64,000 bases of DNA from Fimbriimonas ginsengisoli Gsoil 348 (lineage in GTDB: Bacteria > Armatimonadota > Fimbriimonadia > Fimbriimonadales > Fimbriimonadaceae), in contig NZ_CP007139.1 of assembly GCF_000724625.1 (NCBI RefSeq), positions 682,001 to 746,000 of the forward strand. Reading direction: 5' to 3'. This document shows, in pieces, positions 39,344-56,593 of this stretch. The notes under the pieces were generated by a model. It did not search any database and was not told the origin of the DNA. It saw only the letters and a program-made list of their open reading frames with translations. The position numbers and the translations under genes are program-made. Positions within the stretch are counted from its first letter, which is position 1. Every line of letters begins with the position of its first letter.

Positions 39344-40858
39344 TTACTTGCTTAGCTCTAGCGTAGTGACGCTGAACGGGGCCGCGGTTAGGGTGACGAC
39401 GCTGGTCTTGACCCGGGCGGAAGCCGCTCGAGGGGTTCGATAAGCGTCCGAGGTCACCGCAAAGGCGCGCACGTTGCGGGCGCGGAATCCTCGGAGGGAG
39501 AGGGTTAGCGGCATCGGGACGCCGGTCTTGTTAATCGCCACGATTGTCATTCTCCGGCGGTTTTTCGAGTCGAGCGCGGCGTAGACCGAGTTCGCTTCTG
39601 CGTTCGTTCCGGTCACCTTGAGGCCCAGATCGCCGAAGCGCGAGCCGTGACGGTCGAAATCGGCAAACGCGTCGAAGCCGGCCAGCATCATCTGATCGCG
39701 AGGGTTCAGGCCCCAGTTGCAGGCCGCGAAGAGGCCGTACCGGCCGAAGATGCCCAGTACGTCAGCCTGGGCGACGGCGCCCGAGATGTGATTTCCGCCG
39801 CCATAGTTGTATTCGGTGATCGCGAATTTGGTGCCGGGATAGTGCTGGGCGATTTGAGTTTGAATTCTCGGCAGCAGCTCGATCGGCTTCTTGCCAAGGC
39901 TGTCGGCGATCCAGCTTGTCTCGACGTAGGTGGGATCCCAGAGCGAACGCGGCGCTTGGATGCGCGCGGCAGCGGTGCCCGGTTTGTCGTTATTGTCGGT
40001 GATCCGCACGTTGTCGCCCCTCGCCTCCGGGTACCAGTGGACGTCCAGCACGTCGAGCAGGCGACGGCGCCCCTTGCGCTCCGCTTGGTGAAGAGCGTCG
40101 AGATACGTGTTTAGGAAGTCGCGCCCATTTGCGTCCGCCGCGTCTTGGAACCGGCGAAATCCTTGCCATCCGTAGTTAGCCGGGCCGAAAACGAGCGCTT
40201 TCGGCGCAACCCGTTTAATAGCCATCGCGAACTCGACGTTATTGGCGATGATCTGGGCATATGTCGGATTCTTAGGCCAGATCCGCTGATGCGTCGAACC
40301 CCAGAGGTCGGGCTCGTTGTCGAGGCTGAACCAGACGGGGGTGCGGTTCGACTTGATCTTTTCCACCCAGGCAACGAATTCGTCCTGGTAGACGGCTCGG
40401 TCCTTGGTGTTCGGCGGGTAGGTGAGCCGACCCGGCTTGTGAGCGTAGGACTTCAGGAAGCGGACGGAGAGGTAGTTCGGGGTTTTGGCAACGTCGCCGT
40501 CGCCGTTCTTGTCGGCGGCAACGTAGCCGGCGGTGGGAACGGTGAGAATCGCCGCCGCCCCGTGACTCTGCGCCGGCCTGAGAAAATTGCTGACCGTCCA
40601 ACCAGGTTCGTTCGAAGCGCCAAGGTAGTTGTCGTTCTGGTGGTGGTAATCGTTCCCAGCGTTGCTGGCATTCGTCTCCCAGTTATACGCGGTCATGCGA
40701 TTCCCGCCTTGGCGAGCCAGCGTAACGCCGCGGCCGATCCCTTTCCAGTCGGGATTGTTAATCCCATAAATAAATGGCGAGATCGGCCGCACGTCGGAGG
40801 CATCGATGACGATCGTAGGGGCGGCCGAAGCCGACAGAACAAGAAGCGAAAAAATCAT
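39344..40858 (-). CDS. Glycoside hydrolase family 44 (endoglucanase/xyloglucanase-like)
   Basis: About 504 aa from ATG 40858; a TTG at 40915 would add a basic leader but sits in the T-tract of the upstream terminator. A short hydrophobic signal (MIFSLLVLSASAA) is followed by the GH44 start RPISPFIYGINNPDW, then LARQGGNRMTAYNWE and NASNAGNDY. Acid/base Glu182 in SLDNEPDLWG; nucleophile Glu349 in AITEYNYGGGNHISG. The C-terminal residues form the small beta-sandwich of GH44. The family cleaves internal beta-1,4 bonds of cellulose, xyloglucan or related glucans; the enzyme acts outside the cell. Confidence 0.92.
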   Translation of the reverse strand: MIFSLLVLSASAAPTIVIDASDVRPISPFIYGINNPDWKGIGRGVTLARQGGNRMTAYNWETNASNAGNDYHHQNDNYLGASNEPGWTVSNFLRPAQSHGAAAILTVPTAGYVAADKNGDGDVAKTPNYLSVRFLKSYAHKPGRLTYPPNTKDRAVYQDEFVAWVEKIKSNRTPVWFSLDNEPDLWGSTHQRIWPKNPTYAQIIANNVEFAMAIKRVAPKALVFGPANYGWQGFRRFQDAADANGRDFLNTYLDALHQAERKGRRRLLDVLDVHWYPEARGDNVRITDNNDKPGTAAARIQAPRSLWDPTYVETSWIADSLGKKPIELLPRIQTQIAQHYPGTKFAITEYNYGGGNHISGAVAQADVLGIFGRYGLFAACNWGLNPRDQMMLAGFDAFADFDRHGSRFGDLGLKVTGTNAEANSVYAALDSKNRRRMTIVAINKTGVPMPLTLSLRGFRARNVRAFAVTSDAYRTPRAASARVKTSVVTLTAAPFSVTTLELSK

Positions 40859-40918
40859 GGCGCTTATTGAATAACGTACACCTAATCGCCGGGAATCGCT
40901 CCAGCTAACGATCAAAAA

Positions 40919-41386: not shown

Positions 41387-42250
41387 TTACCGGGAGCTGT
41401 CCCAGAGGTTCTTGGAAGGGTCGGGGCCAGGGTTAGTGGCGACCGGGTTCATCGACTTGGCGTGGCCGTCGGCCCACACGTAGTTGGTGGTGCCGCTGCT
41501 CGGGCTCGTGATGTCGACCGAGTTCACACCGCCGTTGCGGTTATTCTTCGAGAAGACTACTGCCGAACCATTCGGCGAAACGGTATAAGGCGTACCGTCT
41601 CGGCGGCCATCCGGAATCCAGCCGCCAACTCCGACGAAGTCCCACCAGTTGATGCTGGTTAGGAAGTTGCTCGGGCCCCACAGCGGGTAAGCGCCGTAGA
41701 CTTCCGAGAACATGATCGTGCTCGCGGGCTGGGTGACTTGGGTCTCGTTAGTGTCGCCCCGATCCATCCACGAACCGCAACCTGTGCCGCTGGTGCCGTC
41801 CTGCCGGGCGACTTCCACATGGGCCTGGTCCATGCCCATGATTCCGTACATTCCCCAGCCGCTTCCGTCCCACTTCATGAATCCGTTGGCGGCGAACGAA
41901 ACGTTAACGCCACCCGCGCCGGCCATCCAGGACGGCCAGTTGTCGCGTCGCTTGGAATCCAGCGGCGAGAGAAGGATCTGAGTGTTCTTGATGTATGGCT
42001 GAGTCGTGTAGGCCCAGTTGTAATCGAGGGTGCCCCACCAGCAAGCGCGAACGCCCGCCGGGAACATGCCATCCTCGTCATTGTTGTACAGCATGGTAGC
42101 GATACCGAGCTGCTTGGCGTTGGACAGGGAGGCAGTCTTCTTCGCTGCGGCCTTGGCCTGGGCGAAGACCGGGAACAGAATGGCGGCGAGGATCGCGATG
42201 ATAGCGATGACGACGAGAAGCTCGATGAGCGTGAAACCGCGATGTTTCAT
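41387..42250 (-). CDS. Pseudopilin-like protein with H-X9-DG motif
   Basis: 287 aa from ATG 42250 (MKHRGFTLIELLVVIAIIAI), preceded by AGGAAAG. Prepilin cleavage motif after a four-residue leader, then the family's AAILFPVFAQAKAAAKK. The C-terminal part has GTTNYVWADGHAKSMN, the H-x9-DG-like ending. The type resembles DUF1559-related pseudopilins of planctomycetes and armatimonads. It lies 15 bp downstream of the lacI-family gene on the same strand and is followed by a terminator. Confidence 0.92.
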   Translation of the reverse strand: MKHRGFTLIELLVVIAIIAILAAILFPVFAQAKAAAKKTASLSNAKQLGIATMLYNNDEDGMFPAGVRACWWGTLDYNWAYTTQPYIKNTQILLSPLDSKRRDNWPSWMAGAGGVNVSFAANGFMKWDGSGWGMYGIMGMDQAHVEVARQDGTSGTGCGSWMDRGDTNETQVTQPASTIMFSEVYGAYPLWGPSNFLTSINWWDFVGVGGWIPDGRRDGTPYTVSPNGSAVVFSKNNRNGGVNSVDITSPSSGTTNYVWADGHAKSMNPVATNPGPDPSKNLWDSSR

Positions 42251-42264
42251 ATTAGATGGCTTTC

Positions 42265-43290
42265 CTATATAGATACGGGACTGGTGGACTCTCTTATATC
42301 GAGGCCACATGGTAACACGACGTGGGGCGATAGAGGCGGAGCGCCGCCGATGATCTCCATCAGCAAGTCGATCGCGCGCTCACCCATCATGGCGAGTGGT
42401 TGATTAACCGAAGTAAGAGCCGGGCGTAGTTCCCGACAATAAGCAGTAGAGTCAAAACCTATAACGGATAGTTGGTCCGGTATGCGCACACCCAACTTCG
42501 GTGCTCGCTCCAAGATTTGGCCGGCGAGCTTGTCGGTATGCGAGATGACGGCAGTATGCCGATCCTTCGCCCGAAGGAATTCGTCGAGCTCCTCGAAATC
42601 GGGCGAAATGTGAACGATGTCGCAATCGTTGACGGGTGCGTCGCGCCGAGCCATCGAGTTTTGGAAGGCCGTAAGGCGGCTAAACGACTCAATCGTGATG
42701 ACGTCTCCGCCCAGCGCGAAAGCGATTCGTCGGTGTCCCAAGTTAAACAGGTGCTCGACGGCTAAGTCGATTCCCTGGTCGTTATCGCAGATGACGGTGG
42801 GCAGTTGATCTCCAAATTCCCCCTTATGGCCGTGAATAACCACGAGAGGAACGGTTGCTTCGAGCAGCATCCGACGATTCTCTTCGGAAGGGGCCGCGCT
42901 GTACCACACAAGGCCGTCGAACCTTCCATCGTTCATCGCTTCCTGGGGGGTGCTTCCCAGCAGGTGCGGGCAGAGAGTAACCGAGTATCCGTGCTTGAAA
43001 GCTCCCTCGACCACTCCATCCATAAGGCACGCGAAGTAGCGGGGCCCCTGGTCGAAGCTGGGACGCTCGAAACCAACGCCGTGGAGCACGCCGATCATTC
43101 GCGTCTGCTGATTGCGGAAGTTGCGGGCTAAGACGTTGCAGCGGTAGCCGAGCTCTTTGGCGGCCTCCCGAACCCGGATGGCGGTGGCCTCGCTGACGCG
43201 AACGCTCGTGGCCTTGTTGTGAAGTACACGAGAGACGACTACCGGCGATACGCCAGCCTTGGCGGCCACTTGGCGAACGGTTACGGGCAT
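42265..43290 (-). CDS. LacI-family transcriptional regulator
   Basis: 341 aa. N-terminal LacI helix-turn-helix VTVRQVAAKAGVSPVVVSRV and hinge helix (ATAIRVREAAKELGYRCN). Periplasmic-binding-protein-like sugar-sensing domain: DGLVWYSAAPSE, VICDNDQGIDLAVEHLFNLG, LSVIGFDSTAYCRELRPALT, and QPLAMMGERAIDLL. It is divergent from the GH2 gene, whose upstream region has a 20-bp palindrome centred on CG at 43551-43570, the usual form of LacI-family operators. It likely represses the GH2 gene until the sugar is present. Confidence 0.95.
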   Translation of the reverse strand: MPVTVRQVAAKAGVSPVVVSRVLHNKATSVRVSEATAIRVREAAKELGYRCNVLARNFRNQQTRMIGVLHGVGFERPSFDQGPRYFACLMDGVVEGAFKHGYSVTLCPHLLGSTPQEAMNDGRFDGLVWYSAAPSEENRRMLLEATVPLVVIHGHKGEFGDQLPTVICDNDQGIDLAVEHLFNLGHRRIAFALGGDVITIESFSRLTAFQNSMARRDAPVNDCDIVHISPDFEELDEFLRAKDRHTAVISHTDKLAGQILERAPKLGVRIPDQLSVIGFDSTAYCRELRPALTSVNQPLAMMGERAIDLLMEIIGGAPPLSPHVVLPCGLDIRESTSPVSI

Positions 43291-43570: not shown

Positions 43571-43610
43571 GTCTGAGGATTTCCGCCCATACTTCTTCTG
43601 GTTGCCGCTC

Positions 43611-46397
43611 ATGAATCCAGTTTTCGTTCCGCTTCGCCGCCTCTTTCCGCTGCTCGCCCTCCTGCTCCTCGCCGCCACCTCAGGCTGGGCGTCGCCCCGC
43701 CTCCGGATCCGGTTCGACGACGGGTGGCGTTTCCGTAGGGACGCCGATCCCAAGTCAGGAGGGGAGATGGGGCCACTTTCCTGGCAGTGGAAGCCGGCCG
43801 ACCGTGACCTGGATTTACAGACCCTTCCGTCCGACATCGATTCCGGACCGTGGAAGCCGACGCGGTTGGGACGGAACGAGCTCCGGAACGGAATCCGTTT
43901 CGGGTGGTTCCGAGCCGATCTGGGTTCGAATCCTCTCGATCGGGAAAAGGTGCTGCATTTCGAGTCGGTCGACGACAACGCAGTGGTCTTTGTCAACGGA
44001 ATCCGGCTGAAGAGGCAGGACGGGTACGGGACGCCGTTCGACGTTCCGGTCTTCAGAGCCTGGAGCGCTTCTGGACCGAACCGGCTCGTGGTCCTCGTCG
44101 AGAATACGGGCGGATGGGGCGGGATCAACGGCAGCGTCACCTTCGCCAAGCCGCCGCCTCCCGAGTCTTTGCCTGCTGAAGCCGCGACTGGGTTCTCGGA
44201 CAAAGCTTGGCGGACGGTGCACCTTCCCCACGACTACGTGGTGGAGGGAACGTTCAAACAAGGCGAGAACGTGTCGCACGGCTCGCTGCCTAGGCCGACC
44301 GCCTGGTATCGGAAGACCTTTACGATTCCCCCTTCCTACCGCGGCAAGAGGGTTTGGATCGACTTCGACGGGGTGTACCGAAACAGCACCGTCTATCTCA
44401 ACGGCCGAAAGCTCGGGCACGAATCCAGCGGCTACATCGGATTCCGCTACGACCTCACCGACCGGCTGCAATACGGAAAGCCGAACGTCTTGGCCGTCCG
44501 AGTCGATCCGACGAAGGACGAGGGATGGTGGTACGAGGGCGCGGGCATCTACCGGCACGTCTGGCTAAACGTGACATCGCCGGTGCATGTCGTACCGGAC
44601 GGAACGTTTGTGACGTCGAACGTTGGCGCCGGGCGGGCGTCTTTGACTATCTCGACCTCCATTGCAAATGACTCTAGCCATCCGACAAGGGTGGTGTTAA
44701 CCTCGGAGATCTACGATCCGGCCGGACATCGAGTCGCAACAATCCGAAAGGTCGACTTGATCGAGGCGGGCAAGAGTGTCACGGTCAACCAGCATTCAGA
44801 TGTAGTCAAGCCCACGCTCTGGTCCTTAGAAAGCCCAAGGCGATACCAGCTTAAGACCTCGATCCAGGCAGTGGGCGATCCAACGTATCACACCATCAAG
44901 AGCGACGAGGTCAACACTCCCTTCGGTATCCGGACCATCCGGTTCGACAAAGACAAGGGATTCTTCCTGAACGGCAAGCCGGTGAAGCTGAAAGGCACCT
45001 GCAACCACCAGGACCATGCCGGAGTCGGAACCGCGATGCCGGACGGGCTGCTCGAGTGGCGAATCCAGCGGTTGAAATCGATGGGCTCGAACGCCTATCG
45101 CTGCTCGCACAACCCGCCGGCAGCGGAGTTGCTCGACGCCTGCGACCGGCTCGGAATGCTCGTCATGGACGAAACCCGCCATCTCGGCGACGCGACCCAA
45201 CCGAAGTCGCCGCGAGGCACCACGGCCGACGACCTATCCGAGCTCAAGCGGCTCGTCCTACGCGACCGAAACCACCCGAGCGTGATCATGTGGTCGCTCT
45301 TCAACGAGGAGCCGCTTCAAGGATCGCCGGAAGGCGCGGCTATCTACGAGAAGATGGTTGCCGCCGTTCGGAAGTTGGATCCGACGAGGCCGTGCACCGG
45401 CGCGGCGAACGGTGGATACGGCAGCGGAATCCAACTCGTGAGCGAGTTATTCGGCTTCAACTACAACATCGGCGCCTACGACAACTTCCATCGGCGCTTC
45501 CCGAACCAGCCGATGTACGGCAGTGAAACGGCGAGCACCGTCAGCACCCGCGGAATCTACGCCAACGACACCGTCCGCGGCTACGTGAGCGCCTATGACG
45601 TGAACCATCCGGCGTGGGCCGAGACCGCCGAGCATGCCTGGAAACCGATCGCCGAGCGCCCTTGGATGGCCGGCGGCTTCGTCTGGACCGGGTTCGACTA
45701 CAAAGGTGAGCCGACGCCGTACGGTTGGCCATGCGTCAATTCGCACTTCGGCATCCTCGACATCTGCGGATTCCCCAAGGACAACTTCTACTATTACAAG
45801 GCCTGGTGGGGAGATAAGCCGGTCGTGCACCTGCTGCCGCACTGGAACTGGCCCGGGAAAGAGGGACAAAAGATCAACGTCTGGGTTCAAAGCAACGCGG
45901 ACCGGGTGGAACTGCTTGTAAACGGCCGGTCTGTTGGTTCGAAGCCGGTGCCGAGGTTCGAGCACGCCGAGTGGGATGTTCCTTACGAGCCGGGGATGCT
46001 GGAGGCTCGGGGATACCGGGGAAACAAGCTGATCGCCAGCGACCGGATCGACACCACCGGTGCGCCGGCCGCGATCCGATTGAAGACCACCCGATCGCGG
46101 CTCTTGGCCGACGAGGAGGATCTATCGCCGGTCGAAGTGGAGATCGTCGATGCCCGCGGGCGCGTCGTGCCGACCGCGGACAACATGGTCAAGTTCTCGA
46201 TCTCGGGTCCCGGGCATGTCGCGGGCGTCGGCAACGGCGACCCAAGCAGTCACGAGCCGGACAAAGCATCGAAGCGCCACGCCTTCAACGGTCTCTGCAT
46301 GGCGTTAGTGCAGGCCACCAACCGGCCCGGCCGGATCGTGGTCACCGCCACCTCCCCCGGCCTGAAGGGCGCGTCGTTGGTCTTGACGAGCCACTAG
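43611..46397 (+). CDS. Secreted glycoside hydrolase family 2 (beta-galactosidase-like)
   Basis: 928 aa from ATG 43611 with a signal peptide (LFPLLALLLLAATSGWAS). GH2 sugar-binding, Ig-like and TIM-barrel domains: VHLPHDYVVEG, WIDFDGVYRNSTVYLNGRKLG, EGAGIYRHVWL, then MGSNAYRCSHNPPA. Acid/base Glu566 (SLFNEEPLQG), nucleophile Glu639 (MYGSETAS). The C-terminus has DUF4982-like and Ig-like modules. The family removes terminal beta-galactosyl or other units; the exact substrate is unknown. Likely under the divergent LacI regulator through the palindrome 40 bp upstream. Hairpin repeats start just after the stop. Confidence 0.94.
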   Translation: MNPVFVPLRRLFPLLALLLLAATSGWASPRLRIRFDDGWRFRRDADPKSGGEMGPLSWQWKPADRDLDLQTLPSDIDSGPWKPTRLGRNELRNGIRFGWFRADLGSNPLDREKVLHFESVDDNAVVFVNGIRLKRQDGYGTPFDVPVFRAWSASGPNRLVVLVENTGGWGGINGSVTFAKPPPPESLPAEAATGFSDKAWRTVHLPHDYVVEGTFKQGENVSHGSLPRPTAWYRKTFTIPPSYRGKRVWIDFDGVYRNSTVYLNGRKLGHESSGYIGFRYDLTDRLQYGKPNVLAVRVDPTKDEGWWYEGAGIYRHVWLNVTSPVHVVPDGTFVTSNVGAGRASLTISTSIANDSSHPTRVVLTSEIYDPAGHRVATIRKVDLIEAGKSVTVNQHSDVVKPTLWSLESPRRYQLKTSIQAVGDPTYHTIKSDEVNTPFGIRTIRFDKDKGFFLNGKPVKLKGTCNHQDHAGVGTAMPDGLLEWRIQRLKSMGSNAYRCSHNPPAAELLDACDRLGMLVMDETRHLGDATQPKSPRGTTADDLSELKRLVLRDRNHPSVIMWSLFNEEPLQGSPEGAAIYEKMVAAVRKLDPTRPCTGAANGGYGSGIQLVSELFGFNYNIGAYDNFHRRFPNQPMYGSETASTVSTRGIYANDTVRGYVSAYDVNHPAWAETAEHAWKPIAERPWMAGGFVWTGFDYKGEPTPYGWPCVNSHFGILDICGFPKDNFYYYKAWWGDKPVVHLLPHWNWPGKEGQKINVWVQSNADRVELLVNGRSVGSKPVPRFEHAEWDVPYEPGMLEARGYRGNKLIASDRIDTTGAPAAIRLKTTRSRLLADEEDLSPVEVEIVDARGRVVPTADNMVKFSISGPGHVAGVGNGDPSSHEPDKASKRHAFNGLCMALVQATNRPGRIVVTATSPGLKGASLVLTSH

Positions 46398-49652: not shown

Positions 49653-51131
49653 TTACTTCCCGTTAAACAAGTTGACGACCTGCGGCGCCAGGGCGCCGAG
49701 GACTCCGATTAGACCGAGCGCGCACGCACCGAGAACGCCGAGGTTCGTTCGAGCGGGGCGCGGCTCGGGCGTTGATTCGCTGACGGAATCGCCGCCCGTG
49801 TAGACCGCCATCGCGATCGACAGATAGTAATAGACCGAGATGATCGAATTCACCGCCAGAACCACCGCGAGCCAGGTGAGACCGGCCGAGCTGATGTCCC
49901 GAATGATTTGGAACTTGCCCCAGAAACCGGCGGTCGGCGGCAGACCGACCAGCGAGGCGATAAAGATCACTAACGTCGCCGCCGCGAACGGAGCTCGTTT
50001 GGCAAGCCCATTCAGTTCGGTAAGGAGCGTTCCCTCCTTACCGTCCTTCGCAGCCATCGAGAGCACGGCAAAGGCGCCTGCCGTCATTGCGGTGTAGCCA
50101 AAGAGGTAGTACGCGATGGTCCCGTAGCCGACGGTGGTTGGGCTTTGCAGGTGGGCGATCACCGCCACCAATACATATCCCGCCTGCGCGATCGAGCTGT
50201 AGCCGAGAATCCGCTTCGCATCCTTCTGCGTCAGCGCCACCAGGTTGCCGACCGTCATTGTCAAAACCGCGAGTACGCAGAGCGCGGGAATCCAAATTCC
50301 CACCATCTCGCGGACGACAACCGCGTCGAGAACCCTGACGAGGGCGGCAAACGCGCCGACCTTGGAGACGGTCGCCATAAACGACGTCACATTGGTTGGC
50401 GCCCCTTGATAGACGTCGGGGGTCCATTGGTGGAACGGCACGAGGCTCGCTTTGAAGCCGAGCCCGATGACGATCATCCCAACTCCGAAAACGATCAGCG
50501 GGCGGGCGGCGGGGCCACCCGAGATCCAGGCTCGGGCGACCTCTTCCAGGTGCAAGGTACCGGTCGCCCCGTAAAGGAACGAGATGCCGTAAAGCAAGAA
50601 TCCGCTTGCAAAAGCGCCGAGAAGAAAATATTTCAGCGCCGATTCGCTCGACTTCTCTTCGGTTCGGCTCATGCCCGCCATTACGTAGAGAGCGACGGAA
50701 AGAATCTCGAGGCCAACGAAGATCACCAACAGGTTCTTCGTCGAAGCCATGATCATGGCGCCGGTCGACGACCAGAGCATCAGCGGATAGAACTCGCCAA
50801 ACGGGATCCTCTTATTGCGTAGATATCCTTCGCTGAATACGATGCTCAGCAGCGTTCCCAACACGATGACGATCTGCATGATCGACCCGAACCGGTCGAC
50901 CAGATACGTGTCGCTAAAGGTCGAGAACTCCAGATCCCCCAGGTTCCGGAAGGCGAGGAAGCCGGCGACGGCGAGACCGAGCAACGAGATTGCCACGATC
51001 GCGTCGTTGTTGTGCTTCGGCCGGGCCATCTCGACGATCAGCGCGAGAATGCCGGTGAGCATCACGATGACGACCGGCAGGATCGCGAAGAGGTCCGCCT
51101 CCGGGACGGGGAACATGAAGGGTGGGTTCAC
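49653..51131 (-). CDS. nuoN: NADH-quinone oxidoreductase subunit N
   Basis: 492 aa, about 14 membrane spans, antiporter-like. Conserved Lys in KYFLLGAFASGFLLYG and in the GFKASLVPFHQWTPDVYQGAPT motif mark the proton channel. The start overlaps the stop of the URO-D-like gene as ATGA. Part of the membrane arm of complex I, pumping protons. Last nuo gene of this cluster. Confidence 0.96.
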   Translation of the reverse strand: MNPPFMFPVPEADLFAILPVVIVMLTGILALIVEMARPKHNNDAIVAISLLGLAVAGFLAFRNLGDLEFSTFSDTYLVDRFGSIMQIVIVLGTLLSIVFSEGYLRNKRIPFGEFYPLMLWSSTGAMIMASTKNLLVIFVGLEILSVALYVMAGMSRTEEKSSESALKYFLLGAFASGFLLYGISFLYGATGTLHLEEVARAWISGGPAARPLIVFGVGMIVIGLGFKASLVPFHQWTPDVYQGAPTNVTSFMATVSKVGAFAALVRVLDAVVVREMVGIWIPALCVLAVLTMTVGNLVALTQKDAKRILGYSSIAQAGYVLVAVIAHLQSPTTVGYGTIAYYLFGYTAMTAGAFAVLSMAAKDGKEGTLLTELNGLAKRAPFAAATLVIFIASLVGLPPTAGFWGKFQIIRDISSAGLTWLAVVLAVNSIISVYYYLSIAMAVYTGGDSVSESTPEPRPARTNLGVLGACALGLIGVLGALAPQVVNLFNGK

Positions 51132-51790
51132 GTACGGGGCTTCTCCAAAACTTTAGTGGCGCTAGATAGCGGGTGGACGATCCGAAGGTCGGCCGATTCG
51201 TCGAACGTCGCGACCGCTCCGTCCCGCATCGCCCGGCCTTGCTCGGTACCGATACCGGACGTTCGGTCGTCCCATCCGAAGAAATGCGCGGGCAGATCGC
51301 TGACGAAATCGAGATATAGATCCGCGTCTCCGACGACGAAGAGCAAATTGAGGGTCGCGCCTTTCACCGATTCGAGCAGCTCGCGATCCCGCTCCAGATA
51401 GTGGCCGCCGTACTGCATCGGGGTGCAGTGAACGGAAGTGGCGCCGTGAAGGCGGTAGAGAACGCCGTCGGCCCCCGCATCCAGGCAACGGCTCATCATG
51501 GTCCGGATCGCCTCGGCAAATTCGTCCAGGATACGAGCCCCTTCCTTCGGGTCCTTCGCTAATTCGGCGTTTAAGTCGATCCCCCGCGCCCATGCTCGTC
51601 CGAATGGATTCGGAACTTCGATCAGCTTCGGCCGCTCGTCTTTGGCCGAGTGGGCGGCGACGAATTCCGGATCGGGAGCGAGGACGACGACGTCGGACCG
51701 GCTATCCGTCATCCCAGGCCAATAAATCAGCGGTTGGCGATCCGGCTCGCCTCGGCGAGCCGCCGCGAAGAGGCGCTCGCGAGTGTTCAT
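51128..51790 (-). CDS. Short uroporphyrinogen decarboxylase (URO-D)-like protein inside the nuo operon
   Basis: 220 aa from ATG 51790 (ATGA overlap with the nuoM stop); its own stop overlaps the nuoN start. The N-terminus MNTRERLFAAARRGEPDRQPL is typical of URO-D/methyltransferase-type TIM barrels, and CLDAGADGVLYRLHGATSVH with SDLPAHFFGWDDRTSG resembles the later strands. It is far shorter than the about 340-aa URO-D enzymes, so the middle and end of the barrel are missing or remodelled. No link between this family and complex I is known to me. Function unknown. Confidence 0.75.
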   Translation of the reverse strand: MNTRERLFAAARRGEPDRQPLIYWPGMTDSRSDVVVLAPDPEFVAAHSAKDERPKLIEVPNPFGRAWARGIDLNAELAKDPKEGARILDEFAEAIRTMMSRCLDAGADGVLYRLHGATSVHCTPMQYGGHYLERDRELLESVKGATLNLLFVVGDADLYLDFVSDLPAHFFGWDDRTSGIGTEQGRAMRDGAVATFDESADLRIVHPLSSATKVLEKPRT

Positions 51791-53385
51791 CCCCGATCCT
51801 CCCTCGCCGGCTTCATCGCGACGCCGGTTCCGGTGGTGGCGCTCTCCCAAGTGGGGCGATGGCCTTCCGGAAGAACTACCATGTCGCGCGTCGTGCGGAC
51901 GCTTTGCTCCATCTGGTTCGTAAAGAGCCGAGAGTAGAGGCCGCCTACGATAATGAGGACGGCCAGCGAACCGCTTAGCGCGATCTCCCAGGGCTTGATG
52001 TCGCGAAGACGGCGATTGGTCGGGTTAGCGTTCTCTCCGTAGAAGATCTGCTGGAACATGTACAGCATGTAGACGGCGACGATCACCATGCTGGCCCCGG
52101 CGGCAATCGCATACCCCAGGCTGATTCCGTAGAGTCCGGCGAATCCGGTGGTGTAGATCCCGAACAGCGCGAGGATCTCTCCAACGAACCCGTTGGTTCC
52201 CGGAAGGCCCAAGGACGCGAGGGTCGCGATGAGGAAGATCGCCGCGAAGATCGGCATTTGACCTTTCAGCCCACCGAAGTCGCGCAGCATCGTAGTTCCC
52301 CGTCGCTGATAGAGGAAGCCCAGGAGTAAGAAGAGCAGCCCGGAGACGATTCCGTGATTAAGCTGCTGATAGCTTCCGCCGATCATTCCCACTTCGTTCA
52401 GGGAGAAGATGCCGAGCATCACCATCCCCATATGGGAAATGGAAGAGTAGGCGAGCAGCCGCCGGGCATCGGTTTGCACCGCGGCGACGATCGCCGCGTA
52501 AAGCACGCCGATAACCGCCAACGCCGCCAGAATCGAAACCGAGTTCTTCGCCGCGTCCGGGAAGAGGGGGAGGCAGAAGCGGAGGAAACCATACGACCCG
52601 AGTTTCACCATCGCGCCGGAAAGAATCGGACCCGCAGTCGGCGACTCGCCGTACGTGTCCGGAACCCAGGTGTGGAACGGGAAGATCGGACTTTTCACCA
52701 GGAAAGCCGCCGCGAAGGACCAGAACAGGAACGCCTCCGCTTGCAAAGCGTTCCGCCAGAGACCGCCGTTCGCCACGCTCGACTGAATCTGAACGATGTC
52801 GAACGTGAGCGCGTGGCCGGTCGATTTGCAGTGCAACGCCAACCCGATCATTCCCACAAGGAAGAAGATCGATCCCGCGAAGGTGTAGATCAAAAACTTG
52901 TTTGCCGCGTATGCCCGTCGCTCACCGCCCCAGACGAGGATCATCAACCACATCGGGATCAGGGTCGCCTCGAAGAAGGTGAAGAAGAACACCAGGTCAA
53001 GCGAGCAAAACGCTCCGATCATCGCGCCTTCGAGTAGCAGGATCAACGCCATGAACGAGCGCGGGCGCTTATCGACATACCAGCTAAACGCCACCGCCAC
53101 CAGCGAAAGCAACGCGGTGAGCAGGATCAGCCACATCGAGATCCCGTCTACGCCGAGGTGATACGACACCCCGAGGTCCGGGAACCACGCGTGCTGCTCC
53201 TCAAACTGAAAGCCGGACGACGCGGATTGGAACGTCGGCAGCAAGCCGATGATTCCGAACACGAGAGTCAGAATCGTGAGCGCGAGCGCCAGTAGCTTGG
53301 CAAGCTTTGCGTTCTCTTTCGGCAAGAACGCCAGTAGCAAAGCGCCTAGGAGCGGGAGGAAAGTGAGAATGCTGAGGATCGGCAT
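51787..53385 (-). CDS. nuoM: NADH-quinone oxidoreductase subunit M
   Basis: 532 aa, about 14 spans. Key sites: FFEATLIPMWLMILVWGGERR (Glu of TM5), LVKSPIFPFHTWVPDTYGESP (Lys) and the later YSSISHMGMVMLGIF. Family-typical antiporter-like proton-pumping subunit. The start codon directly follows the nuoL stop. The C-terminal about 40 residues are hydrophilic and slightly longer than usual. Translationally coupled to the URO-D-like gene. Confidence 0.96.
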   Translation of the reverse strand: MPILSILTFLPLLGALLLAFLPKENAKLAKLLALALTILTLVFGIIGLLPTFQSASSGFQFEEQHAWFPDLGVSYHLGVDGISMWLILLTALLSLVAVAFSWYVDKRPRSFMALILLLEGAMIGAFCSLDLVFFFTFFEATLIPMWLMILVWGGERRAYAANKFLIYTFAGSIFFLVGMIGLALHCKSTGHALTFDIVQIQSSVANGGLWRNALQAEAFLFWSFAAAFLVKSPIFPFHTWVPDTYGESPTAGPILSGAMVKLGSYGFLRFCLPLFPDAAKNSVSILAALAVIGVLYAAIVAAVQTDARRLLAYSSISHMGMVMLGIFSLNEVGMIGGSYQQLNHGIVSGLLFLLLGFLYQRRGTTMLRDFGGLKGQMPIFAAIFLIATLASLGLPGTNGFVGEILALFGIYTTGFAGLYGISLGYAIAAGASMVIVAVYMLYMFQQIFYGENANPTNRRLRDIKPWEIALSGSLAVLIIVGGLYSRLFTNQMEQSVRTTRDMVVLPEGHRPTWESATTGTGVAMKPAREDRG

Positions 53386-55605
53386 TTAGTGGTTGCCTCC
53401 CGTTCGATTGAGCATCACCAAGAGATAGCCCAGGAAGCCAACCCCGCCGAGAAGCATCACCAGGGCATACAAGCGGACGTAACCGGATTGAGCCACTTTT
53501 AGGAGCGAGCCGATACCGGCCGCCAACCGGCCAAGGCCGTTGACAATTCCGTCGACCAAGCCGACGTCGATGTACCGCCAGATACCCCGCGCAAGGTCTC
53601 CGCCCCCTTCGACGCTCGTAACCGTGAGCGCCTCATCGAAGCCGAACTGGCGCGCGGCGTCGCGTCGCCATCCTGCCCACCGGCCTTCGTCCCATCCCTG
53701 ATCCTTCGGCAGGCCTCGAATGTAGAACGCCGCTCCCAAAAGGATGCCGAGGGCGGCCGCCACCGCGGAGTAGACGGCGAGGTTCGGAACTTCTGACGGG
53801 ACGTCTTTCAAGACCGGAAGGCCAATTGGATATAGCCAGTGCTTGAAGGCGTCGCCCCTCGCGAGCAGGAAGCCCCCACCAACCGACAGCGCGGCGAGAA
53901 CCACAAGCGGAACCCACATGCTAGGCGGCACTTCGCGCGGCGTATGGTTCTCGTCCAATTCGTGGTGCTCTTCGTGCGATTCCGCGTGCGGGTCGGATGC
54001 GTAGTAGAAGCCGTGGGGGTCCTCTGTGAGCTCCTGGGGAACCGATTCGATTTCCGCCTCGGCCGGAGCCTCGACGTGGACCTCGGTCGTGTAATCGAGC
54101 GAGGTCTCCTCGTGGACCGCGTGCGCCTCATCGGAATGGACAGGGGCGTGGGCCGGTATGAGCCGCCATCGCTCCTGAGTCCCGAAGAAGGTTAGGAACG
54201 TAAGCCGCGACATGTAAACCGACGTCAGCAGCGCGACGAAAAGCCCGGTCCAACCCGCGATCTGCCCGAGGTTAACCCCGTTGATGACCGCGTGATTGCC
54301 GGCGATCGCCGAGCCGAGAATCGCCTCCTTACTGTAGGCGCCGGCAAATCCGAGAACTCCGCCGGGAAGCGGGATCGCGATCGCCGCGATCGCAAGCCAC
54401 CCGATCACCATCGTCCAGGTCGTAATCGGCAGATACTTACGGAGGTTGCCGTAGTTCCGCATGTCCTGGTTGTGGGCCATCGCATGGATCACCGCGCCCG
54501 CGCCAAGGAACAGTAGCGCCTTGAAGAAGGCGTGGGTCGTTACGTGGAACATCCCCGCCCAGAACGCGCCCGCCCCGCAGGCGATGAACATAAATCCAAG
54601 CTGGGACACCGTCGAAAAGGCGAGCACCTTCTTGATATCCGTCTGCCCGAACGCAATGACCGCCGCGAAGAGGGCGGTGAATGCGCCGACGATCGCGATA
54701 ATCGCGCTCGCCACCGGCGACATTTCGAAGACGATATGCATCCGGTTCAGCAACACCACGCCCGATGTCACCATCGTGGCGGCATGGATGAGCGCGGAAA
54801 CCGGAGTGGGGCCGGCCATCGCGTCCGGGAGCCAAAGATAAAGCGGAAACTGCGCCGACTTGCCCGCCGCGCCGATGAAGAGCAGAATGGCGAGCATCGT
54901 CGCCGCCGCCGGGTTCTGAGCGAGGATGCGCCCGAGCTCGGGCAGCATCACGTCGTAGCTCAGAAAGCGCGCCCCCTCCGCCTTGACGTTGCTCGTCGTC
55001 AACAGGGCGAAGATCATGAAGAGGCCAAGGCCAAGTCCCCAGTCGCCGATTCGATTGACGATAAACGCCTTGTTCGCCGCCCGCGCGTTCGCCAGATCCT
55101 TGTACCAAAAGCCGATCAGCAGGTACGAGCAAAGCCCAACCCCTTCCCAGCCCATGAACAGGAGAAGCAAGTTGTTCCCGAGCACCAGGATCAGCATCGA
55201 GGCGATGAAGAGATTCAGGTAGGTAAAGAACCTCGCGTAATCGCGCTCTTCCGCCATATAGCCGGTGGCGTAAAGGTGGATCAGGCCGCCGATTCCGGTG
55301 ATGATGAGCACCATCGTCATCGACAGCGGGTCGATCAGAAATTCAAACGGCACCTTCAACGACTCGATGTCGATCCAAGGAATCCCGGTGACGATCACCG
55401 CCCGTTGCGCTTCCGCCAGGCCGGACAGATCCAGAGTGACCATCACCGCGGCGGCAAACGCCAGCAGAATCGGGATCACTGCCAGCGCGCCGACGACTCG
55501 CTTGCCCATCGACTTCGCGAGCCGCTTGCCGAGGAAAGCCTGGACAAGGAAGCCGACCACGGGCAGAAGGAGAACCGCCCAAATCAGACTAAAATTGCCG
55601 TTCAT
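53386..55605 (-). CDS. nuoL: NADH-quinone oxidoreductase subunit L with a His/Glu-rich loop
   Basis: 739 aa, longer than the about 610-aa E. coli protein. Antiporter-like core with GWEGVGLCSYLLIGFWYK, GKSAQFPLYLWLPDAMAGPTPVSA and a long C-terminal amphipathic helix. Between about residues 470 and 560 is a hydrophilic insertion rich in His and Glu (HEETSLDYTTEVHVEAP, HAESHEEHHELDENHT), which could bind metal ions or be a flexible loop on the outside. First of the three large antiporter-like subunits. Confidence 0.96.
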   Translation of the reverse strand: MNGNFSLIWAVLLLPVVGFLVQAFLGKRLAKSMGKRVVGALAVIPILLAFAAAVMVTLDLSGLAEAQRAVIVTGIPWIDIESLKVPFEFLIDPLSMTMVLIITGIGGLIHLYATGYMAEERDYARFFTYLNLFIASMLILVLGNNLLLLFMGWEGVGLCSYLLIGFWYKDLANARAANKAFIVNRIGDWGLGLGLFMIFALLTTSNVKAEGARFLSYDVMLPELGRILAQNPAAATMLAILLFIGAAGKSAQFPLYLWLPDAMAGPTPVSALIHAATMVTSGVVLLNRMHIVFEMSPVASAIIAIVGAFTALFAAVIAFGQTDIKKVLAFSTVSQLGFMFIACGAGAFWAGMFHVTTHAFFKALLFLGAGAVIHAMAHNQDMRNYGNLRKYLPITTWTMVIGWLAIAAIAIPLPGGVLGFAGAYSKEAILGSAIAGNHAVINGVNLGQIAGWTGLFVALLTSVYMSRLTFLTFFGTQERWRLIPAHAPVHSDEAHAVHEETSLDYTTEVHVEAPAEAEIESVPQELTEDPHGFYYASDPHAESHEEHHELDENHTPREVPPSMWVPLVVLAALSVGGGFLLARGDAFKHWLYPIGLPVLKDVPSEVPNLAVYSAVAAALGILLGAAFYIRGLPKDQGWDEGRWAGWRRDAARQFGFDEALTVTSVEGGGDLARGIWRYIDVGLVDGIVNGLGRLAAGIGSLLKVAQSGYVRLYALVMLLGGVGFLGYLLVMLNRTGGNH

Positions 55606-55613
55606 CCTTCTTG

Positions 55614-55964
55614 TTAGCCTCTAAGCAAATTCAGCTCGTCGATGTCGACGTTTTCCCGCAGCCGGAAGATCGACATGATAATCCCCAGTCCCACCGCCAC
55701 CTCGGCCGCCGCGACCGCCATCACGAAGACGACCATCATCTGGCCGGCCACTACGCTTCGCTGAGCCGCCAGGCTGTCGGCCGCGCCGACGTTCGAAATC
55801 TGGTACTTGGCGAAAGCGAGGAACGTAAGGTTGACCGCGTTCAGCATCAGCTCGATGCACATAAAAATCACGATCGGGTTCCGGCGAATGATGACGCCGA
55901 CGACCCCGGTCGCAAACATGAACAGGCCGAGCGCCAGATAAGCCGCAAGTGGAACTCCGTTCAT
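55614..55964 (-). CDS. nuoK: NADH-quinone oxidoreductase subunit K
   Basis: 116 aa from ATG 55964, overlapping the nuoJ stop as ATGA. Three membrane spans: [39 protein letters not shown] (with the conserved membrane Glu) and [20 protein letters not shown] (second Glu). Complex I membrane arm, quinone-linked proton path. Eight bases separate it from nuoL. Confidence 0.96.
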
Positions 55965-56485
55965 ACGCGCCTCTTTGCCAGCAGGATCGAGCCGACGATG
56001 CCGACGAGCAACAGGATGCTCACCGCTTCGAACGGGAAAATGTAGTCCGTAAATAGCGCCCGGCCGATTACCGGCGGCGCTCCAAATCCTTCCATCGCAT
56101 GCGGCTGCGTGGCGCCGATGAAGTGCGGCAGAACCTGCGAACCAACCACCGCGAAGAGCCCAAGCCCCAAGATTGCGCCCGCCGCCTTCTTCCAGTCCGC
56201 TTTTTCCTTGAGCACGACCGGCGCACCTAGGTTGAGCAGCATGATCACGAAGAGGAACAGCACCATGATCGCGCCGGTGTAAACCACGATCTGGGTCACG
56301 CCGAGCGTTTCCGCGTTCAGCGAGAAGTACACGAACGCCAGCAGGAAGAAATTCACCACCAGGCAAAGCGCGGACCGGATCGGATTGTTAAACGCCACGA
56401 CCCCAATCGCGCAAAGCACGATGGCGCCCGCCAGCGCTCCGAACAGCAACAAGTTCGGGGTGATCTCGACCCCACCCAGGTTCAT
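55961..56485 (-). CDS. nuoJ: NADH-quinone oxidoreductase subunit J
   Basis: 174 aa, five membrane spans, with the conserved [20 protein letters not shown] and [21 protein letters not shown]. Complex I membrane arm. About 106 bp after the nuoH stop, a gap filled partly by an 8-bp tandem repeat. nuoI, which usually sits between nuoH and nuoJ, is absent here. Confidence 0.95.
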
Positions 56486-56553
56486 ATCTTTCGCATACCC
56501 CCAAAATCATTGCTCGATGAGGAGAATCTTGTGGGCCGGCCTACGTGGCCTCC

Positions 56554-56593
56554 AGCAATCAAGCAATCAAGCAATCCAGCAATCAAGCAATTC
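56554..56593. repeat. Octamer tandem repeat at the nuoH stop codon
   Basis: Five consecutive 8-bp units (AGCAATCA, AGCAATCA, AGCAATCC, AGCAATCA, AGCAATTC) end inside the nuoH stop codon (56592-56594). On the minus strand the unit reads TGATTGCT, so the stop TGA begins the series. Confidence 0.9.

Follow-up and report, generated by a model that had tools for sequence, protein, structure and literature searches.

Bacterial complex I is usually regarded as a bare core of 14 subunits with few accessory proteins. A subunit of the Paracoccus denitrificans complex, CI-PIMT, belongs to a methyltransferase family and has lost its catalytic residues, and a canonical copy of the same protein, Free-PIMT, coexists with it (PMC11522691). 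Enzyme folds have also been recruited to the membrane arm on its matrix side, which corresponds to the cytoplasmic side. They are ACAD9, a part of the MCIA complex, and the gamma-carbonic anhydrase domain of plants, and ND2, the equivalent of NuoN, is at the core of both the MCIA model and the plant intermediate (PMC10910544). The Thermus complex carries two lineage-specific small accessory proteins, Nqo15 and Nqo16, and the former has a borrowed frataxin-like fold (PMC11522691 and general knowledge).

The gene analyzed here, U, lies between nuoM and nuoN of Fimbriimonas ginsengisoli in a window (the whole stretch of DNA that was analyzed) of 64,000 nucleotides. We lean towards the view that its product is a miniaturized pseudo-methyltransferase that may now be a dedicated accessory or assembly protein of complex I. 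Like CI-PIMT, it would be a methyltransferase-family protein that is specific to complex I and has lost its catalytic residues, with the metabolic job done by a separate gene, Free-PIMT there and hemE here. However, CI-PIMT has a SAM-dependent Rossmann fold, sits on the hydrophilic arm at NDUFS3 and has been proven by cryo-EM (PMC11522691), whereas U has a predicted TIM barrel, its gene is placed between two membrane-arm subunits, and it is known here from genes and a predicted fold. ACAD9 and the gamma-carbonic anhydrases differ from U in that their folds are unrelated, they are eukaryotic and they are not encoded in a complex I operon. Nqo15 and Nqo16 resemble it as small lineage-specific proteins, but they are subunits of the hydrophilic arm and are unrelated in sequence. 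If our view is true, a phylum-old gene between two proton-pumping subunits encodes a new accessory or assembly protein of this complex, and complex I has captured a methyltransferase-family protein a second time, independently of CI-PIMT. It would also mean that a metal-site enzyme has turned into a minimal pseudoenzyme beside NuoM and NuoN. A literature search confined largely to freely accessible journals returned no URO-D-like gene tied to nuoM/nuoN or to complex I of Armatimonadota.

The nuo locus of F. ginsengisoli

The genes are arranged in the order nuoH-J-K-L-M-U-N, with the following features in window coordinates:

49653..51131, minus strand: nuoN
51128..51131, minus strand: GTGA overlap of the nuoN start and the U stop (sequence)
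51128..51790, minus strand: U (P0001), a 220-aa miniature UroD/MtaA-superfamily barrel and presumed pseudoenzyme (open reading frame, Pfam, predicted fold)
51787..51790, minus strand: ATGA overlap of the U start and the nuoM stop (sequence)
51787..53385, minus strand: nuoM
51798..51802, minus strand: Shine-Dalgarno-like GGAGG inside the 3' end of nuoM (direct sequence)
53386..55605, minus strand: nuoL
55614..55964, minus strand: nuoK (start inferred; overlaps the nuoJ stop)
55961..56485, minus strand: nuoJ
56592..57947, minus strand: nuoH

The reading frame of U runs from 51790 to 51128 over 220 codons. A plus-strand reading of the same interval is ruled out by several stop codons. The strong GGAGG is located 7 nt upstream of the ATG (51790-51788). 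An earlier note on this DNA had described a 220-aa URO-D-like frame, about a third shorter than known URO-D enzymes, that overlaps the nuoM stop as ATGA; the frame is real and lies on the minus strand, and both its size and this overlap are as claimed. The note had also given the overlap with the nuoN start as ATGA, whereas the actual letters are GTGA, and an in-frame ATG is present 15 nt inside from this GTG.

NuoD and NuoF are encoded at coordinate distances of roughly 3.0 and 4.3 Mb (G000:C1:3754793-3755605 and 5063323-5063847) in the single-contig 5.23-Mb genome. Hence, the membrane-arm block has stayed together while other nuo genes were dispersed. We saw no nuoI between nuoH and nuoJ within 49653-57947. 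Elsewhere in the window, large secreted glycoside-hydrolase-like proteins are encoded at 39344-40915 and 43602-46397, and near them lie a LacI-type regulator (42265-43290) and a type II pilin-like protein (41387-42310), all with functions read from the translations only.

Fold and motifs of the U protein

The Pfam URO-D model (PF01208) matches U with 29.7 bits against a gathering score of 23.9. The match is partial, as it covers only residues 75-178 of the protein and positions 167-271 of the 346-position profile, and the NCBIfam models gave no match to the window protein. The same URO-D model detects a separate full-length hemE in the genome (G000:C1:1009796-1010788) with 432 bits over profile positions 5-344. 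It does not match anything at all in several relatives that carry U, for example G006, G008, G001 and G028. Genes of the UroD superfamily are greatly expanded in G012, G026 and G027 (22, 10 and 26 matches, respectively), and several close relatives have none.

Many homologues of U are full-length proteins. Their scores with the NCBIfam MtaA/CmuA/MtbA models (66 bits) are well below the cut-off of 244, and among solved structures MtaA of Methanosarcina mazei (4ay7, E 1e-13) comes closest to them, ahead of any HemE. The corrinoid:thiol methyltransferases MtaA, MtbA and CmuA (4ay7; NF004889, TIGR01463) share the barrel fold with U, MtaA being the nearest solved structure by sequence profile for the full-length form and by fold for the window protein.

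The structure prediction proposed in the earlier note gave a confident (beta-alpha)8 barrel. AlphaFold2, run on an input of 27 sequences, produced a model of U with a pLDDT of 93.5, a pTM of 0.89 and eight short strands. When this model was compared with the PDB, MtaA (4ay7) was the best match with a Z-score of 18.9 and 209 of the 220 residues aligned, followed by HemE structures (Z about 17-18) and MetE (Z about 12-13). At the level of the predicted fold, U is a barrel of the UroD/MtaA type. The full-length form was predicted as a complete barrel with a pLDDT of 91.4. Compared with it, the short form retains all eight strands but lacks the loops and helices that separate strand 1 from strand 3, as well as the helix preceding strand 8. 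According to these models, U is a complete but stripped barrel and not a fragment. It shares the Pfam family match and the fold with HemE, but it is 220 aa long, covers only a part of the profile, is less similar to HemE than to MtaA, and coexists with a separate hemE. With that gene in the genome, the identification of U as HemE was rejected.

Three places in the short form stand out in the alignment:

51287..51316, minus strand: YLDFVSDLPA (residues 159-168), kept by almost every short form (alignment)
51332..51340, minus strand: F151-V-V153, the site of the lost H-x-H pair of the full-length relatives (alignment)
51377..51424, minus strand: TPMQYGGHYLERDREL (residues 123-138), motif gained by the short clade in the loop after strand 4 (alignment)

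H225, H227 and C306 do not vary among 24 divergent full-length proteins, and in the alignment they fall on the H-x-C of MtaA and on its late C. We take these MtaA residues to be its zinc ligands. The full-length relatives therefore keep residues at the three ligand positions as MtaA does, but in the form of H-x-H...C instead of H-x-C...C. In the window protein, which is about 120 aa shorter than MtaA, all three are missing: F151 and V153 occupy the H-x-H positions and the C-terminal part contains no Cys. We counted these motifs over all loci in hand, taking distinct proteins only. The H-x-H pair was found in all 43 full-length proteins (41 by pattern and two, FLHIHG and SLHVHG, by eye), the GC motif in 42 of them and PM[QE]YGG in none. 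Among the 49 short proteins, neither H-x-H nor the GC motif occurred even once, whereas a PM[QE]YGG-type motif (pattern PM[QES][YF][GS]G) was present in 48, the remaining one reading PMQYGS. A second conserved stretch of the short forms is Y(L/I)DFVSDLPA..F.W. Judged by secondary structure, the conserved residues of the short form would sit in loops that follow strands 4, 5 and 6, on what was once the catalytic face. That a single clade has replaced one motif so cleanly with another is explained better by a changed function than by mere decay. The suggestion of the earlier note that U might be a cofactor-linked protein is unlikely for the short form, since it has lost the residues of the metal site.

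In a maximum-likelihood tree, the short forms (the family of the window, f1, and its sister f5) split from all full-length forms with a support of 100/100. The linked or unlinked state changes about four times on it, although the short-form branches are long and details inside the tree are not to be pressed.

Conservation, loss and selection

Homologues of U were found in 32 of the 41 relatives searched, mostly between nuoM and nuoN. The order nuoM-U-nuoN occurs in 12 of 20 genomes of the same genus; in the class, U is present in 86 of 113 genomes and the order recurs across five families. A full-length U (305-330 aa) fills the slot inside the class in f3, f4 and two f2 genomes, and a full-length U is placed likewise in f10, f12, f14 and f19, four Armatimonadota families outside the class. 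The order that the earlier note wanted checked in relatives is thus widely kept, the gene being neither absent from all of them nor frameshifted there. Dozens of genomes have this frame in the same position and with these overlaps, the proteins being 30-50 % identical.

Among the matches listed, the short form adjoins nuoM and/or nuoN in 68 of 68 genomes. These are made up of 60 of the 60 f1 genomes with U (54 nuoM-U-nuoN, four nuoM-U and two U-nuoN) and eight of eight in f5, where in one genome (G040, locus L011) U adjoins nuoN. Where nuoN or nuoM has been relocated, U remains with the other one (G089, G072, G046, G090 and G071). The linkage of U to core complex I genes is therefore stable across divergent lineages. 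The full-length form behaves differently: among the matches listed, it is unlinked to nuoM/nuoN in 14 of 16 f2 genomes, in all those found in f11, f23, f32, f38, f39 and f44, and in two of f12. No consistent neighbour or metabolic partner emerged at 12 such unlinked loci. As the full-length form is often found away from nuoM and nuoN, the ancestral protein could do without being linked to them. Judging from these gene orders, the arrangement is probably old in Armatimonadota and has been broken repeatedly. A scan of genome contigs with one peptide pattern, which by itself does not prove a restriction to the phylum, returned 31 loci, and those titled with a phylum or a lower taxon were all from Armatimonadota.

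The gene is absent from eight of the 20 same-genus genomes and from one genome of another genus. In all of these, nuoM directly adjoins nuoN, mostly overlapping it or lying a few bases and at most 30 away, which leaves no room for U. Hence, U was lost cleanly several times; it is dispensable, and complex I works without it. In seven pairs of relatives with measurable dS, the dN/dS of U was 0.05-0.26 compared to 0.02-0.13 for nuoM/nuoN, i.e. about 1.3-6 times higher. This indicates purifying selection that is weaker than that on the core subunits. The dN/dS values and the recurrence in relatives rule out a chance open reading frame or a pseudogene. In-frame stops had been flagged in G099 and G071, but the open frames in both reach their own stop cleanly and no broken copy was seen.

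Proposed origin and role of U

We propose that the gene of a full-length ancestor from the UroD/MtaA superfamily, probably a zinc-dependent methyltransferase-type barrel, settled between nuoM and nuoN early in the history of Armatimonadota. The metal-site residues would have been lost in the common ancestor of f1 and f5, and in f1 about 90-110 residues of helices would have followed, with all eight strands kept. The new motif PM[QE]YGG would have become fixed in the loop after strand 4. The product would then be a soluble cytoplasmic pseudoenzyme, presumably devoid of catalysis and synthesized in step with NuoM and NuoN. It would most likely bind to the membrane arm on its cytoplasmic face, or to an assembly intermediate of it, and act as an accessory subunit or an assembly or stability factor. 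A link with complex I, drawn from gene order only, explains the conserved embedding most economically. For the earlier note, which had offered a new assembly factor or an unrelated insertion, this means that the former option stands as the more economical one, whereas the latter was dropped because the order recurs. It must be kept in mind that gene order alone can outlive function, and this counts against a complex I role, as do the losses of U in the same genus, the many unlinked full-length forms and the higher dN/dS of U compared to nuoM/nuoN.

Three other explanations were considered. U may still be an enzyme or a ligand-binding protein that merely shares the nuo transcript, with the PMQYGG mouth of the barrel as a new active or binding site, for example a methyl carrier or transferase working on a corrinoid, folate, quinone or thiol. 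New active sites can be marked by new invariant motifs, the conserved residues cluster after strands 4-6, which by secondary structure would be the catalytic face of such barrels, and full-length relatives with an intact putative metal site are often found outside nuo loci. We nevertheless regard this as unlikely, since H-x-H...C is gone from all 49 short proteins, several loops and helices have been removed, the unlinked loci have no consistent metabolic neighbours, and among the matches listed the short form is linked to nuoM/nuoN without exception. That U is the uroporphyrinogen decarboxylase of the cell, or a heme-cofactor protein linking heme supply to respiration, is highly improbable. 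Apart from the above-threshold Pfam match, the evidence is against it: the separate hemE is full-length, several U-bearing relatives have no match to the model, and the full-length forms align better with MtaA than with any HemE.

It is also rather improbable that U is a decaying passenger of the operon, with little or no function as a protein, whose frame is kept open by translational coupling between nuoM and nuoN. The shrinkage from 327 to 254, 220 and 169 aa, the repeated losses with clean re-coupling and the faster evolution compared to nuoM/nuoN could all be explained in this way. However, its dN/dS is far from about 1, the new motif is fixed in 48 of 49 proteins and the predicted fold is compact and confident; low dN/dS together with such a fold argues against a mere translational spacer. 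Furthermore, most of the genomes that lost U couple nuoM and nuoN directly or nearly so (ATGA/GTGA), and hence an intervening frame is not needed for the coupling.

Our reading of U as a complex I accessory or assembly protein can be taken further, albeit tentatively. In Fimbriimonadales, the stripped barrel could be a stoichiometric subunit on the cytoplasmic side of NuoM/NuoN, and its ancestor could have been a catalytically competent enzyme that modified complex I or its quinone or lipid environment. The phylum would then display the stages from an enzyme to a structural subunit, at 327, 254, 220 and 169 aa and finally loss. In any case, the series of sizes is a natural experiment on how much of itself a TIM barrel can lose. 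At three loci from the same genus (L021, L023 and L025), the U between nuoM and nuoN is only 169 aa long and its N-terminal segment is gone, too. These proteins may rank with the smallest barrels of this type in nature, or else have fewer strands. Also of note is that one relative, G027, carries two complex I sets (C12 and C16; L039 and L047), one with U between nuoM and nuoN and one without it.
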